Source: Candidatus Nitrotoga fabula (lineage in GTDB: Bacteria; Pseudomonadota; Gammaproteobacteria; Burkholderiales; Gallionellaceae). From it: a stretch of DNA of 64,000 nt. Of this stretch, positions 43,913-53,541 are shown in pieces. Every line of letters starts with the position of its first letter. The first letter of the stretch is position 1. The notes under the pieces were generated by a model, which ran no database searches, was not told the DNA's origin, and saw only the letters and a program-made list of their open reading frames with translations. The stretch spans positions 62,001 through 126,000 of the forward strand of contig NZ_CAJNBL010000044.1 in NCBI RefSeq assembly GCF_905221025.1, read 5' to 3'. The translations under genes were made by a program, and so were the position numbers.

Positions 43913-44575
43913 TCAGCGCAAGGTCAGGATGGGCCAACCATGTTGTTCTGCATGCTTGCGCAAGGTAGCATCCGGATCAACCGCTACTGGGTGGCTCACT
44001 TTTCCCAGCAAAGGAAGATCATTCAAAGAATCGCTGTAAAAAAAACTGGCGACAAACGTGCCCCACCCCCAGTTGTGCTGTTCCAGCCAGCTTTCCAGAC
44101 GGGTAACTTTTCCTTCGCGGAAACATGGCACACCCGTAACAGATCCGGTAAATTCACCGTCTATTTCTTCCGGTTCCGTTGCAATCAAATGTTCCACACC
44201 GAATTCACGTGCAATCGGTGAAGTCACAAAGCTATTTGTGGCAGTAATAATGATGCACATATCGCCCGCAGTGCGATGCCGCGCTACCAACTCCTGTGCG
44301 GGGGTAGAAATCATGCCGCGCACCTTGGTCCACATGAAGTCATCACGCCAGCCATTCAGCACCTTGCGCGAATGACGGGACAAGGGTTTCAGCTGGAAAT
44401 CAAGAAATTCATGAATATCCAGCGTACCCGCTTTATATTGCTCATAAAATGCCAGGTTTTTTGCTTCAAACAGTTCACGGTCAAGCACGCCCTGTTCAAT
44501 TAAAAATTGAGCCCATTCGAAATCACTATCACCATTCAATAGGGTATTGTCCAAATCAAATAATACGAGGTTCAC
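43913..44575 (-). CDS. HAD-superfamily IB hydrolase, SerB-like phosphatase
   Basis: 220 residues. Motif I LVLFDLDNTLLNGDSDFEW with the nucleophile Asp, motif II in IIITATNSFVTSPIAREFG, motif III Lys in FREGKVTRLESW, and motif IV YSDSLNDLPLLG. Resembles phosphoserine phosphatase-like HAD-IB proteins that accompany hda in betaproteobacteria; substrate unknown. A GTG start at 44575 overlapping the hda stop and preceded by GGAG is preferred over the longer frame to 44650. Confidence 0.87.
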   Translation of the reverse strand: MNLVLFDLDNTLLNGDSDFEWAQFLIEQGVLDRELFEAKNLAFYEQYKAGTLDIHEFLDFQLKPLSRHSRKVLNGWRDDFMWTKVRGMISTPAQELVARHRTAGDMCIIITATNSFVTSPIAREFGVEHLIATEPEEIDGEFTGSVTGVPCFREGKVTRLESWLEQHNWGWGTFVASFFYSDSLNDLPLLGKVSHPVAVDPDATLRKHAEQHGWPILTLR

Positions 44576-45240
44576 GCCGACTCCAGATGGATAGACTGCA
44601 ATACTTCTTTTAACAATGGCACGGAAGGTACGCGCTTTAAACGCAGGCACCGCTCATCCAGGGCATCCAGCAACCCTAGCAACGCAGGCAAGTCGCGCCT
44701 TCCATGGCGCAACAGATACTGCGTCACCTCGCGAGGCAGGGCAAAGCCTCGCGCTAGCCCGTGCTGCTCCAATGCCTGGGCCTTTTCTGCGTCATTCAGG
44801 GCATGCACCTGATATACCAGCCCCCATCCCAACCGGGTACGGAGATCATCCCGCAAATCCAGATGAGCCGGCGCAGAAGCCCCGCTTACCAGCAATATGG
44901 TACCGATTTCCCGCATGCGATTATATAGGGCAAACAATTCGATCTGAGCAGCGACATCCAGCTTTTCAACATCGTCTATCGCAACCACCGGAACCATATC
45001 CGGCACCGTACCCTCAACAAAAACAGCAGCCTGCCCCATTGAACGCGCGTGCGCAACTGCTGCGTGCATCAGATGACTCTTTCCGCTACCCGGCTCGCCC
45101 CATAAATAAAAAAAACGTTCATTTGAGGTTCCTTCCAGCGCGTGCTGCAACGCCGAAAGCAATTCGAGATTACGACCCGGCACAAAATTATGCAGCGTGG
45201 GAAACCAATCATGAGCAAGATTTAGTAACAGTTGCGTCAT
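44572..45240 (-). CDS. hda: Hda, DnaA regulatory inactivator homolog
   Basis: 222 residues, similar to the AAA+ domain of DnaA alone. N-terminus MTQLLLNLAHDWFPTLHNFV includes the clamp-binding QLLL motif; P-loop FYLWGEPGSGKSHLMHA; Walker B VVAIDDVEKL. With the loaded beta clamp it stimulates ATP hydrolysis on DnaA, preventing re-initiation. Divergent from purM. Confidence 0.93.
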   Translation of the reverse strand: MTQLLLNLAHDWFPTLHNFVPGRNLELLSALQHALEGTSNERFFYLWGEPGSGKSHLMHAAVAHARSMGQAAVFVEGTVPDMVPVVAIDDVEKLDVAAQIELFALYNRMREIGTILLVSGASAPAHLDLRDDLRTRLGWGLVYQVHALNDAEKAQALEQHGLARGFALPREVTQYLLRHGRRDLPALLGLLDALDERCLRLKRVPSVPLLKEVLQSIHLESA

Positions 45241-50161: not shown

Positions 50162-50734
50162 TCATCCTTCGGAATGGAGCGCCCGGTACTCAACCCCTAG
50201 AACCGTCAGCTCCTCTTCTCCCTCTGGGGTTCGCAGCATGACCACATCGTCGATGCGCGCCTTCAGCAGCGCCCTGGCCAGCGGAGAAACCCAGCTGATC
50301 CGCCCCAGGCTGGCATCCGCCTCATCTACCCCCACGATACTACAGGTGTACTCTGTGCCATTCTTCCTGAGCACGTTAACGGTCGCGCCGAAAAACACCT
50401 GATCGCAGGATCCCCGCTGTGCCGGGTCGACCACAACCGCATTTTCCAGACGGCCGGACAGAAAGCGGATACGCCGGTCAATTTCTCTCAGGCGCCTCTT
50501 GCCATACTGGTAATCGGCATTTTCGGAGCGGTCCCCGTTGGACGCAGCCCAGGTAACGGTTTGCACCAGTGCCGGGCGCTCCGTCTTCCATAGCTGATCC
50601 AGCTCGTCCTTCAGACGCTGGTATCCACCAGGGGTAATATAGTTCTTTGCTCCAGTCGGAAGCGATGGTGAGGAATGCTGCGGTTCCTCGTCATCACGGC
50701 TTTCATCTGTTTCCCTGGTAAATGCTTTACTCAT
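50162..50734 (-). CDS. greB: Transcript cleavage factor GreB
   Basis: 190 residues. After a polar leader of about 30 residues come the coiled coil (ITPGGYQRLKDELDQLW, AASNGDRSENADYQYGKRRL with the acidic tip DRSEN) and the C-terminal FKBP-like domain. The basic run GKRRLREIDRRIRFL is the GreB rather than GreA pattern. It rescues backtracked RNA polymerase. Confidence 0.92.
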   Translation of the reverse strand: MSKAFTRETDESRDDEEPQHSSPSLPTGAKNYITPGGYQRLKDELDQLWKTERPALVQTVTWAASNGDRSENADYQYGKRRLREIDRRIRFLSGRLENAVVVDPAQRGSCDQVFFGATVNVLRKNGTEYTCSIVGVDEADASLGRISWVSPLARALLKARIDDVVMLRTPEGEEELTVLGVEYRALHSEG

Positions 50735-50808
50735 GATTGTTCGATCGATTAACTTTGTTTACGCTTTTGTTGTTTGCACCACCTACACTAAGTTAGGCTC
50801 TCAAAAGA

Positions 50809-50835
50809 CAAAAGGGCCGAAGACCGGCCCTTTTT
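50809..50835. terminator. Intrinsic terminator downstream of the deaminase locus
   Basis: Arms AAAGGGCC and GGCCCTTT pair around GAAGACC, with T tracts on both strands. It lies between the small gene at 50853 and greB, closing the deaminase transcription unit on the minus strand. Confidence 0.8.
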
Positions 50836-50852
50836 GAATTCCATTTTGATGC

Positions 50853-51050
50853 CTACCATCGCAATTTCTGAGCTTCTTGAAGAAGGCGATCTAATACAGT
50901 TCGAGGTTGCACCTGCGTTTGACGTGATTGCGCAAAAGCGCTCAGACTCACCACTTTGGACTCATTAAGAACCACACTAGCGACACGTACTGGTGCGGAA
51001 CTGAAATCCAAGTTCATTTGCCGATCATCAGAATTTACGGTCTTTGACAT
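50853..51050 (-). CDS. Small protein encoded directly after the dCTP deaminase
   Basis: 65 residues, not recognised. N-terminal half NLDFSSAPVRVASVVLNE, C-terminal half PRTVLDRLLQEAQKLRW is probably an amphipathic helix. No membrane segment or cysteine motif. Three tandem ATGs occur; the third (51050) is best spaced from GGGAG. It follows the deaminase stop by 36 bp on the same strand and precedes a terminator, so it is probably cotranscribed. A partner or modulator role is inference only. Confidence 0.6.
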   Translation of the reverse strand: MSKTVNSDDRQMNLDFSSAPVRVASVVLNESKVVSLSAFAQSRQTQVQPRTVLDRLLQEAQKLRW

Positions 51051-51086
51051 CATCATCTCCCTAGGCGGTAGTTTAGATTATTACAC

Positions 51087-52745
51087 TTATGACGACAACC
51101 CTCCACCCTCCAACCCTTCGATTACTTTTTTCAAATGCTCGACCACTTTCAACTCATACTGTCTATAGTCATCCAAGTACTCAGGAACCTTTTTTTCTAC
51201 TTCACGTATTTTGATCATGATAGCCTTCCCCGCCTTATCCTTTCTTTCTCCCGAAGGTGTAAACATATTGAGATACTGCCGCGGAGCCACACCTTCAAAA
51301 TGAAGAAACCTCACCTTACGATCACCCGTCGCCCCGGCTTCGCCACCAGCATCAATACCGTCAATAGCAATGGCATCAGAGTGCAAATCTAGCGCTAAAC
51401 TTTTTTCATATGGCTCAAGGTAATAAACAGTTTTTATGCCTGCCGCCACTATGTGCCTAGCACAATTGTGGCACGGAAAAGTATATGTAAATAGCGTACC
51501 GTCTTTAGTACTCCCTGTTCCCTTCAGCGCCAAGGAAACGATCGCGTCCATTTCTGCATGGATAGACCGTGAGAATTCTATCAAGCCACTCAGTCGCGTT
51601 TCCTCATAGGCTTTTTCTGCAATTTTATTTAATAATTCCTCAACATTAATTCCACTCAATGTCTGAACACATCTTTTTTCTTTTTCAGAAAGCTCTGAAA
51701 AATGTTGTCCTAGTTGTTCGCTGAGTACAGCTTTTATATCCTTAAGTAAATTTCTCTTATAGACATCGTTGTGGCAAACACCAGCCTCTAGCTTCACACA
51801 TCGAGCATCGTCCATTCCACTTTCCGGTCCATAAAGTCCGCCACCAGGCCTTGGGACATCATTTCTACCTGTTGAAATAATGGTTCCATCAACATTCATT
51901 ATGGATGCACCTACCTGCCTGGAAAGACAGGCTGAACGCAACCCAGCCGCATAAGCCACATACATCCCATATTCTTCCTTTGTGGGAGATAAGCCATTTG
52001 CGCCATGCATCAGATCTACGAATCGCTTAATCTGAGAACCCAGAGCTTCTGCGTTACTATGATCATTTCTGATAAAAAAGTCTGCCAATTGGAGAGCTTT
52101 GTCCAATTGCTGGCCATTTTTCTCAGGTTGTTTACGATCCCTTTCAATTAGTTCCGAAATTTTGTTAGGCTCCACCCCCTCTGAACGCAATCGGCTTTCA
52201 CGACGAGGAGTAACACTTAGAACACCAAATAAATAAAAAAGGTTTCCATATACAGCTCGTAACAATGCAATCTCTTCCGGATGTTTTAACTGATCAATTA
52301 AGTATGCTGTTCGCTCTGGAAGGAAGTCAGTAACATCATCCGCTTCAGTCCCGATTTTTTCGGTTCTGATTTCAGCAACTCTCAGAATCGCATACTCAGC
52401 CAAAATATCAGCCTGTCTGACTCTTAGTGCATTTCCAGCATCTTGCATTTGTATATATCTCTCAGCTCCAGTATCAGCGGGTTCACCTGTTACAGAGATA
52501 AGCTTTTTAGATATGCACTCTTTTAAGTAATCACTAATTTTGATGTGATGCACTTGGTAGCTAGATGCAGAAAGAATCTCTGTAATACGTTCTTTGACGG
52601 CCTGAATTCCAGAGCCTATTGGTCCTGCGAATGCAATCACGAGCTCTTTAGACTTTCTTTCAGCGATAGCTTCACTGGGGCGCCTCCCAGAAACATCTCC
52701 ACTCCCAATATCTGGGACTATGTTTAATTTTGCTTCAGCTGACAT
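51087..52745 (-). CDS. Anti-phage dCTP deaminase (DCD/AvcD type)
   Basis: 552 residues in two parts. The N-terminal part has a P-loop nucleotide-kinase-like domain (VIAFAGPIGSGIQAVKERI, residues about 36-54). The C-terminal part is a zinc cytidine/dCMP deaminase: HAE at 396-398 and PCHNC at 424-428 give the zinc ligands and the catalytic Glu. This architecture is that of AvcD/anti-phage dCTP deaminases, which convert dC nucleotides to dU forms and starve phage of dCTP on infection. Base composition is more AT-rich than neighbouring housekeeping genes, suggesting acquisition. Normal dCMP deaminases are about 150 residues and lack the N-terminal domain. Confidence 0.88.
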   Translation of the reverse strand: MSAEAKLNIVPDIGSGDVSGRRPSEAIAERKSKELVIAFAGPIGSGIQAVKERITEILSASSYQVHHIKISDYLKECISKKLISVTGEPADTGAERYIQMQDAGNALRVRQADILAEYAILRVAEIRTEKIGTEADDVTDFLPERTAYLIDQLKHPEEIALLRAVYGNLFYLFGVLSVTPRRESRLRSEGVEPNKISELIERDRKQPEKNGQQLDKALQLADFFIRNDHSNAEALGSQIKRFVDLMHGANGLSPTKEEYGMYVAYAAGLRSACLSRQVGASIMNVDGTIISTGRNDVPRPGGGLYGPESGMDDARCVKLEAGVCHNDVYKRNLLKDIKAVLSEQLGQHFSELSEKEKRCVQTLSGINVEELLNKIAEKAYEETRLSGLIEFSRSIHAEMDAIVSLALKGTGSTKDGTLFTYTFPCHNCARHIVAAGIKTVYYLEPYEKSLALDLHSDAIAIDGIDAGGEAGATGDRKVRFLHFEGVAPRQYLNMFTPSGERKDKAGKAIMIKIREVEKKVPEYLDDYRQYELKVVEHLKKVIEGLEGGGLSS

Positions 52746-52847
52746 ACATGAATTCCTTTTTACGTAATCCTTGCATTGACAAGAACCATATAAAACCGCC
52801 TCTGAACGCAGGTTTTGCAGAGACTAAAAAATAGACATTGCTGGCTT

Positions 52848-53018
52848 TTACCCACCCAACTCTAACAAATCTATATTCTTACCAGACTTGAGAATTTCGT
52901 AGATCAATGCGGTGAATGGGGCCAAAGCCTGTTGGTCCTGCTTAAGCAGATGCTCTGCTTGGGCTTGATGCGATAACCTATCGTGCAGATTATAGGACTC
53001 AAAAAAAGTGCCAACAAT
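52848..53018 (-). other. Unannotated open frame (or RNA) upstream of the deaminase
   Basis: A frame of about 57 codons, ending with TAA at 52848-52850, reads in natural-looking protein (LSHQAQAEHLLKQDQQALAP, ILKSGKNIDLLELGG). No ATG, GTG or well-placed TTG start exists in frame; CTG at 52988 is the best candidate. It begins right after the ssb terminator and ends about 100 bp before the deaminase start. It may be a gene remnant, a small gene with an odd start, or part of an AvcI-like RNA, which in Vibrio lies upstream of avcD. Confidence 0.35.
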
Positions 53019-53056
53019 AAAAAACCCCGATCACTCCTTGAGTGGTTGGGGTTTTG
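53019..53056. terminator. Intrinsic terminator after ssb
   Basis: Arms AAAACCCC..CACT and AGTG..GGGGTTTT pair around CCTTG. The minus-strand T run follows the hairpin about 27 bp after the ssb stop. Symmetrical enough to work on both strands. Confidence 0.8.
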
Positions 53057-53082
53057 TTTACATTATTAAATAATGATACCCG

Positions 53083-53541
53083 CTAGAAAGGAATATCATC
53101 ATCAAAGTTATCGAAGCCGCTACTTCTGGCTGGGGCGGATTTACTGTCAGCGGGCGCACTGTTCTGCGCAGAAGCAGCTGGCCTGTCTGTCGATTCGTAG
53201 CTGCCGCCGCCGGATTTACCCGATAGCATCTGCATTTCGCCGACGATGATATCGGTGGTATAGCGATCCTTGCCGTCCTTATCCTGCCATTTGCGCGTGG
53301 AAAGCTTGCCTTCCACATAAATCATCGAGCCTTTTTTCAGGTATTCCCCGGCAATTTCGGCCAGGCGGCGATAGAAGGTCAGGTTGTGCCACTCGGTTTT
53401 TTCCTGTTTCTCGCCGCTTTTGTCCTTCCAGGTTTCTGACGTTGCCAGCGTGGCATTCGTCACTGCTTCACCATTGGGCATATACCGTGTTTCCGGATCC
53501 TTGCCCAGCCTACCCACCAAAATCACCTTGTTGACCGACAT
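53083..53541 (-). CDS. ssb: Single-stranded DNA-binding protein
   Basis: 152 residues. OB fold begins [20 protein letters not shown], with [20 protein letters not shown] and [18 protein letters not shown]; a Gly/Ser/Ala linker leads to the acidic tip FDDDIPF that recruits partner proteins. One bp after the MFS gene stop, so it may share a transcript with it. Confidence 0.98.

Follow-up and report, generated by a model that had tools for sequence, protein, structure and literature searches.

The AvcID systems of Vibrio cholerae, Vibrio parahaemolyticus and enterotoxigenic Escherichia coli (ETEC), as described in the accessible parts of the source, pair an enzyme of the DCD (dCTP deaminase)/AvcD family with a small adjoining element (PMC10511110). 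The same composition is found in the 64,000-nucleotide stretch of the Candidatus Nitrotoga fabula genome analysed here (the window; contig NZ_CAJNBL010000044.1, positions 62,001 to 126,000), in which a DCD gene is followed by a small companion gene encoding a conserved protein that is specific to DCD loci and carries a motif like that of sliding-clamp ligands. Defence genes for dCTP deaminases are said to have been described as single genes by Tal et al. in 2022. How nucleotide-depleting defences are silenced and triggered is a largely open question, and a protein partner with a clamp motif provides a concrete trigger hypothesis linking the deaminase to the replication fork. The gene pair is confirmed, the reading of the small gene as a dedicated partner is strengthened, and the contrast with Vibrio has become a testable question.

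The deaminase, its companion and their association

The 552-residue protein matches both the NCBIfam model NF041025 for anti-phage dCTP deaminase (467.6 bits, cut-off 400) and the PADLOC dCTPase model (562 bits, 5.2e-169), and these two libraries bear out its placement in the DCD/AvcD family by a first-pass annotation of the sequence. By family membership it is classed as an anti-phage dCTP deaminase, predicted to destroy dCTP. It consists of a P-loop-like N-terminal domain and a C-terminal deaminase domain (Table 1). In the P-loop-like site, G41, G44 and G46 are invariant in 10 aligned rows, and over 33 rows G44 is invariant and G41 almost so. Solved structures match the deaminase part alone by sequence, and Foldseek relates the AlphaFold2 model to dCMP deaminases and to nucleotide-kinase-like folds. 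Two residues past GPIGSG stands Q, R or N in the clade of the window and K in many gammaproteobacterial rows.

The open reading frame (ORF) of the companion has three candidate ATGs, the third of which lies 36 bp past the DCD stop and has seemingly the best spacing from AGGGAG. The DCDs nearest to that of the window (locus L019) are those of L033 (86% identity), L034 (67%) and L022 (65%; L035 is the identical sequence), and in each of these loci a companion homologue of 30-52% identity starts 19-36 nt 3' of the DCD. Nonsynonymous and synonymous divergences between the L019 and L033 companions are 0.37 (dN) and 1.62 (dS), and dN/dS among L019, L033 and L022 is about 0.2. The ORF itself, its homologues in relatives and these ratios confirm the small gene just 3' of the deaminase gene that had been proposed from the sequence. 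The companion has no match at E<=1 in Pfam, NCBIfam or PADLOC, PHROGs match only at E of 0.11 and above, and the family is previously unnamed.

Ligands of the beta clamp share the consensus Q-phi-x-[L/M]-x-[F/L], and the most frequent clamp-binding peptide in phage display was LQLELDF, according to the accessible parts of the source (PMC11139829). QMNLDF in the companion fits this consensus and lies in a segment modelled at a predicted local distance difference test (pLDDT) score below 50. Downstream relatives have QMSLDF, QLSLDF, QLELDF, QLDLDF, QLELEF or QLELNF near the N-terminus; QLELDF, contained in the display peptide, occurs in L021, L105 and L114. With 12 near-duplicate loci excluded, the motif is present in 11 of 11 profile-defined downstream members (shuffled mean 0.34, maximum 3 in 2,000); over all ORFs it occurs in 15 of the 141 downstream ones and in 62 of the other 3,496 (Fisher p=1.4e-7). 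These patterns suggest that the companion may bind the beta clamp (DnaN). The host Hda gene in the window also begins with a motif-like site (QLLLNL in MTQLLLNL).

The companion family, termed family A, is defined here by a profile match together with a position beside a DCD, and the window companion has both. A four-row companion profile run over 399 genomes of the order gave three matches at E<0.001, every one beside a DCD: the window, G362 (its copy identical to a profile row) and G407 (absent from the profile). A further match (E=0.008) lies inside an 844-codon open frame and is chance-like. Searching 92 genomes of the class with a 13-row profile returned the window and one chance-like match (E=0.02, three internal stops). 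In neither search was the small protein found mostly away from DCD, which supports the earlier suggestion of a dedicated partner.

Association with DCD was also assessed in sets of DCD loci. Surveys at E<=1e-30, with overlapping draws, found DCD in 15 of 399, 5 of 369, 19 of 398, 5 of 150 and 5 of 81 genomes, the last being one gammaproteobacterial genus, and additional loci came from viral contigs, plasmids and E. coli. Every ORF of 28-130 aa on either strand entered the pool, giving 2,181 for the first set of loci and 1,910 for a further set of 37. Run unchanged on this further set, the four-row profile gives the least circular evidence: its top twelve ORFs (E up to 1.2) are all DCD-flanking, three of them (L114, L102 and L088) being tagged 'far' and assigned by inspection, and it reaches the upstream ORFs L092/L093 at E=3e-4. 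A profile iterated from four downstream ORFs over all 4,091 ORFs collected 19 rows at E<0.005, two pairs of them identical. All flank a DCD, 18 according to their tag and L102 on inspection; 11 lie downstream and 7 upstream, and L102 is an ORF upstream of a DCD with an out-of-frame N-terminal part. The next seven rows (E 0.018-1.0) are DCD-flanking as well, and the first opposite-strand ORF appears at E=4.8.

The C-terminal signature [AS]x[KRS][LIVT]xW-end, a regular expression composed after inspection of the 12 ORFs it matches, occurs in these 12 of the first 2,181 ORFs (four located downstream of a DCD, eight upstream) and in none of 2,006 others. It recurs in 5 of the 1,910 further ORFs, all DCD-flanking (three by tag, two by inspection). 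One of these, L091, is a repeat of L044, and the further set's E. coli loci are near-copies of each other; L088 (156 nt downstream) and L102 lie past the distance limits and were scored as flanking by inspection. Two tblastn searches of plasmids for the companion gave one chance-like match each, and two scans of viral contigs, with the DCD alone and then with the V. coralliilyticus DCD, were unproductive.

AlphaFold2 was given a single chain in which in-frame stops were read through (TAA=G), comprising DCD, an 11-aa linker and the companion (mean pLDDT 73.8). The C-terminal block of the companion, modelled with low confidence as a helix at residues 617-629, is probably helical. Placement of the companion in this chain is not confident, and the model was not taken as direct proof of a DCD-companion interface.

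Locus, upstream relatives and other companions

DCD and the companion would be carried on one transcript, as the gap between them is short; no promoter-like site was found on scanning this gap. A hairpin scan of 50700-53100 gave five terminator-like sites over both strands against 2.0 expected from shuffles, and on the minus strand one hairpin lies 3' of the gene pair. GC content of the pair is 0.42-0.44 versus 0.50-0.60 in both flanks. The flanking genes ssb and greB are adjacent in three of 12 same-genus relatives (G002, G010 and G011), far apart on one contig in two, and on separate contigs in seven, in which contig breaks possibly mask adjacency.

Table 1. Positions of the features of the deaminase locus in the window
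Feature	Position	Strand	Basis or remark
DCD/AvcD gene	51087..52745	(-)	552 aa; ORF call and family models
P-loop-like GPIGSG, residues 41-46	52608..52625	(-)	alignment
Deaminase HAE (H396, A397, E398)	51552..51560	(-)	invariant in 33/33 aligned rows
Deaminase zinc site PCHNC (P424-C428)	51462..51476	(-)	P424, C425 and C428 invariant in 33/33 rows
Companion gene, family A	50853..51056	(-)	67 aa from first ATG, 65 aa from third
Clamp-binding-motif-like QMNLDF, residues 13-18 of 67-aa form	51003..51020	(-)	consensus of PMC11139829 and relatives
Conserved middle block KVVSLSAFAQSR (VVxF), residues 34-45	50922..50957	(-)	alignments
C-terminal block VLDRLLQEAQKLRW, terminal Trp	50856..50897	(-)	signature common to upstream relatives
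Intrinsic-terminator-like hairpin, 3' of companion	50810..50834	(-)	hairpin scan
Leader 5' of DCD	52746..53060	(-)	no family-A ORF (ORF list)
ssb	53083-53541		flank of gene pair
greB	50162-50734		flank of gene pair
Hda gene	44572-45240	(-)	

The 350 nt upstream of the DCD show no conservation, with 38-46% identity to three relatives versus 43-44% for shuffled sequence, and the downstream 330 nt show 49-63% versus 43-46%. No Rfam model scored above gathering on the leader; the best was the S15 leader at 52695-52792, with 20.6 bits against a gathering threshold of 39.5. Given identity at the shuffled level and no Rfam match over threshold, a conserved leader RNA in the window clade was rejected. 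No inhibitory RNA of the AvcID type was found 5' of the window DCD in this comparison, which is blind to unconserved RNA.

The first-pass annotation had set the downstream gene of the window against the upstream inhibitory RNA of Vibrio. The downstream position of the protein gene stands, but the clean split is weakened by family A lying upstream of DCDs in the clade of the ETEC plasmid p58. In this gammaproteobacterial clade, family-A relatives occupy the place where the AvcI 'noncoding RNA' sits in known systems, and a comparison of the downstream and upstream profiles gives a probability of 92 (E 5.5e-7), a value that is partly circular because the rows were gathered by iteration. The upstream ORFs of ETEC and the E. 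coli chromosome (L072, L083 and L099) were not supported as family A (hhalign probability 0.7-8.5); their support consists of position and, for L083/L099, dN/dS. L068/L069 have the C-terminal signature, yet are absent from profile matches up to E=7.5, with an hhalign probability of 34 against the extended family and 2 against the downstream rows alone.

Several features suggest that the upstream small ORFs look translated. The ungapped upstream pairs L068/L069 and L083/L099, neither placed in family A by profile, have dN/dS of 0.29 and 0.41; the profile-placed pair L092/L042 is gapped and saturated (proportions of synonymous and nonsynonymous differences, pS 0.84 and pN 0.44). A loose test without a chance control gave a Shine-Dalgarno-like 4-5-mer in the 18 nt before 17 of 18 small ORFs, upstream and downstream together. 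No consistent RNA structure was found in the 18 regions: folding against shuffles gave z below -2 in three (L068, L092 and L116) and -1.8 to +1.1 in the others. The minimal functional AvcI is about 171 nt according to the accessible parts of the source (PMC10511110), and two of the upstream ORFs, L070 and L079, measure 171 nt including the stop, an agreement that is suggestive only. Vibrio avcI was compared with family A by its published description only, and the published data, in the parts accessible, favour an active RNA there. Family-A relatives at the avcI position make it testable whether the AvcI antitoxin is RNA, protein or both.

A tree was built from 86 DCD rows of at least 430 residues, 76 after removal of near-copies; L114, L115, L055, L100 and L102 are shorter and stand outside it. 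Labels were assigned by hand, with L101 counted as downstream family A by motif and position, L068/L069 as upstream family A by signature, E. coli-type ORFs under their own label, and L110, L112 and L113 as 'none', since family C (below) was recognised later. Downstream family A is found in the window clade (L019, L033, L034, L022 and L088) as well as in two groups lying deeper in the tree. A clade of 18 rows (support 100/96), among them V. coralliilyticus (L071), Photobacterium (L070) and ETEC p58 (L072), shows an upstream small ORF in 14 of its rows, which is family A in 11 and E. coli-type in 3. In the family-A part of the tree, the upstream side of L089, L090, L094 and L095 is unscored because the contig begins at or near the DCD. 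Weak candidates in L023, L073, L043 and L081 were left out of these counts, and no companion was found in ten distant DCD-like rows (L025, L026, L029, L052-L054, L057, L060, L061 and L082). Companion labels are clustered on the tree (18 changes versus a shuffled mean of 36.9). The two positions of family A may reflect two origins or one relocation, and the tree fits either.

Some upstream ORFs lie on mobile elements. In L086, an E. coli DCD and an upstream family-A-like ORF (E=0.018) are found among transfer genes of an integrative conjugative element. Many plasmids of about 4.6 kb from Klebsiella and some from E. coli, represented by L068 and L069, have few other annotated genes besides DCD and its upstream small ORF.

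Two further companion families, B and C, occur in some rows of the sister part of the tree. Family B comprises companions of about 46-80 aa 3' of DCD, several with a W[PS]xWK-like core (first seen in L018, L024, L037, L038, L074, L080 and L108). At E<=0.025, its profile from earlier loci matches downstream ORFs in nine of the last 27 loci, with ORF starts at -62 to +23 nt relative to the DCD stop (L186-L188, L191, L192, L197, L203, L209 and L218; the L191 and L192 companions are identical). Family C comprises 172-217-aa companions overlapping the DCD stop (L047, L050, L055, L076, L077, L110, L112 and L113); three members scanned against Pfam gave nothing over cut-off, and two scanned against PHROGs gave no match. 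Families B and C are not delimited as sharply as A, since their profiles also match non-flanking or opposite-strand ORFs, in L207 (2e-4 and 0.31) and L219 (0.02) for B and in L212 (0.99) for C. Clamp-motif-like sites were noted by eye, without a chance control, in seven of the eight family C proteins (QLSLF, QLSFNL, QALLF, QGMLF, QGLLF, QPLLF and QPLLL), some of which are close relatives, and not in L047. Only QLSLF and QALLF agree with the strict consensus, and the family C sites are a lead, not a test.

Proposed mechanism and alternatives

The reading preferred here, in which our confidence is about evenly balanced, is a two-protein anti-phage module of a dCTP deaminase and a dedicated tiny regulator with a predicted clamp motif. 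The middle and C-terminal blocks of the companion, which are common to the upstream relatives, would bind DCD and keep it in check, and the N-terminal QMNLDF would tether the DCD-companion complex to the beta clamp. DCD activity would then respond to a disturbed host replisome, to the loss of fresh synthesis or to a new phage fork rich in clamps, and dCTP would be deaminated at the place and time of phage DNA copying. DCD binding, DCD inhibition, clamp binding and the trigger are all predictions from conserved blocks and motif.

Several observations weigh against this reading or limit it. The direction of regulation could be either, a brake or targeting. In the accessible parts of the AvcID source, the AvcI RNA reportedly binds AvcD and inhibits it, and the translation inhibitor spectinomycin neither lowers AvcI nor activates AvcD, counter to a labile protein antitoxin in Vibrio (PMC10511110). 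Family A is absent at E<=1 from the 1,803 ORFs (28-260 aa) of the last 27 loci (L176-L219), of which 17 have no flanking match, with DCD scores of 164-321 bits against the window DCD; L176 (321 bits; sequence without the upstream flank) and L179 (299 bits) appear to be DCDs that lack any recognisable family-A gene, and L211 has one chance-like upstream match (E=0.56). Among the 15 DCD genomes of the order survey, family A occurs in some only (L019, L022 and L021; weakly in L020). Most of the companion (residues 549-616 of the read-through model) scores below 50 pLDDT. As for the motif, short motifs are easily over-read; position 2 of QMNLDF is Met, a hydrophobic residue but not a strictly aliphatic one, and three relatives beyond the 11 have the looser forms QLEFVF, QLSFNF and QMELPL. 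None of the six profile-defined upstream relatives has the motif, and clamp binding is therefore not the universal job of family A.

Conservation of the clamp-type motif in downstream family A, and the looser sites in the larger family C proteins, would equally fit a positive targeting subunit that brings DCD to the fork via the clamp and increases local dCTP destruction or dUTP incorporation with no inhibition. Accessory subunits are commonly encoded downstream of their enzyme in one unit, which counts for this alternative. The upstream relatives retain the C-terminal part without the clamp motif, suggesting a core function in the part that faces DCD, and targeting of this kind is considered unlikely, though it is the strongest of the competitors. 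Less probable again is regulation by RNA as in AvcID, in which the ORF would ride on a regulatory RNA and its protein would be of little importance. The reports on AvcI as a noncoding inhibitor unaffected by spectinomycin speak for it, as do the L068, L092 and L116 regions, which are more stable than shuffles. It is countered by the dN/dS of the two upstream pairs (placed by position, and L068/L069 also by signature), by the Shine-Dalgarno-like 4-5-mers and inconsistent RNA structure, by the single protein profile that matches upstream and downstream ORFs, and by a window clade without a conserved leader.

The companion might instead sense phage infection, for example by binding a phage clamp or clamp loader, and not regulate the enzyme in uninfected cells. 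Its fast-evolving stretch between conserved ends (53% versus 86% for DCD, L019/L033) and the clamp motif would suit such a role; no phage partner is known to us, which counts against it, and this reading is regarded as very improbable. Next to no credence is given to a chance or passenger ORF. The poor library matches of the companion would agree with one, and it was rejected on the homologues beside DCD in relatives, the dN/dS, and a distribution restricted to DCD, with DCD-flanking profile rows.

The preferred two-protein module can be extended to a broader reading, which is held tentatively as a possibility well short of even. DCD/AvcD systems would be two-protein at heart; family A, downstream and with a clamp motif in several lineages, would have moved upstream and lost the motif in the gammaproteobacterial AvcID clade, its gene being mistaken there for a noncoding antitoxin RNA; and replisome coupling would be general, extending over families A and C. 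Such coupling is proposed as a general principle because A and C, apparently unrelated, both bear clamp-motif-like sites, and the broader reading is down-weighted slightly because only two of the eight family C proteins agree with the strict motif.

Comparison with known systems

Stand-alone dCTP deaminase genes share the enzyme model with the window (PADLOC, 562 bits), which adds a dedicated second gene. A literature search, mostly without subscription papers, found nothing joining sliding clamp, anti-phage defence and deaminase, and titles and abstract openings on dCTP deaminase with sliding clamp point elsewhere. Titles and abstract openings of the AvcD/AvcI literature, again mostly without subscription papers, name no protein partner.

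SocAB is a toxin-antitoxin system acting on the clamp. A pneumococcal toxin-antitoxin system is likewise linked to DnaN, according to the accessible parts of the report (PMC12795458). Both resemble the window as small two-gene systems with a DnaN link; in them the clamp is the target of the toxin, whereas in the window a nucleotide deaminase is paired with a partner that bears the clamp motif. Hda and other beta-clamp ligands have the motif in common with the companion, and that of Hda is also in a disordered N-terminus, as described in the accessible parts of the source (PMC11139829). Unlike these ligands, the companion is a 65-aa protein without a confidently folded domain and is tied to a defence enzyme.

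The DCD of plasmid p58 of ETEC H10407, possibly the published, tested ETEC AvcD, belongs to the clade with upstream small ORFs. As far as the accessible description of AvcID extends, the element there is an upstream noncoding RNA, AvcI, whereas the window, with no conserved leader, has a downstream protein gene bearing a clamp motif.
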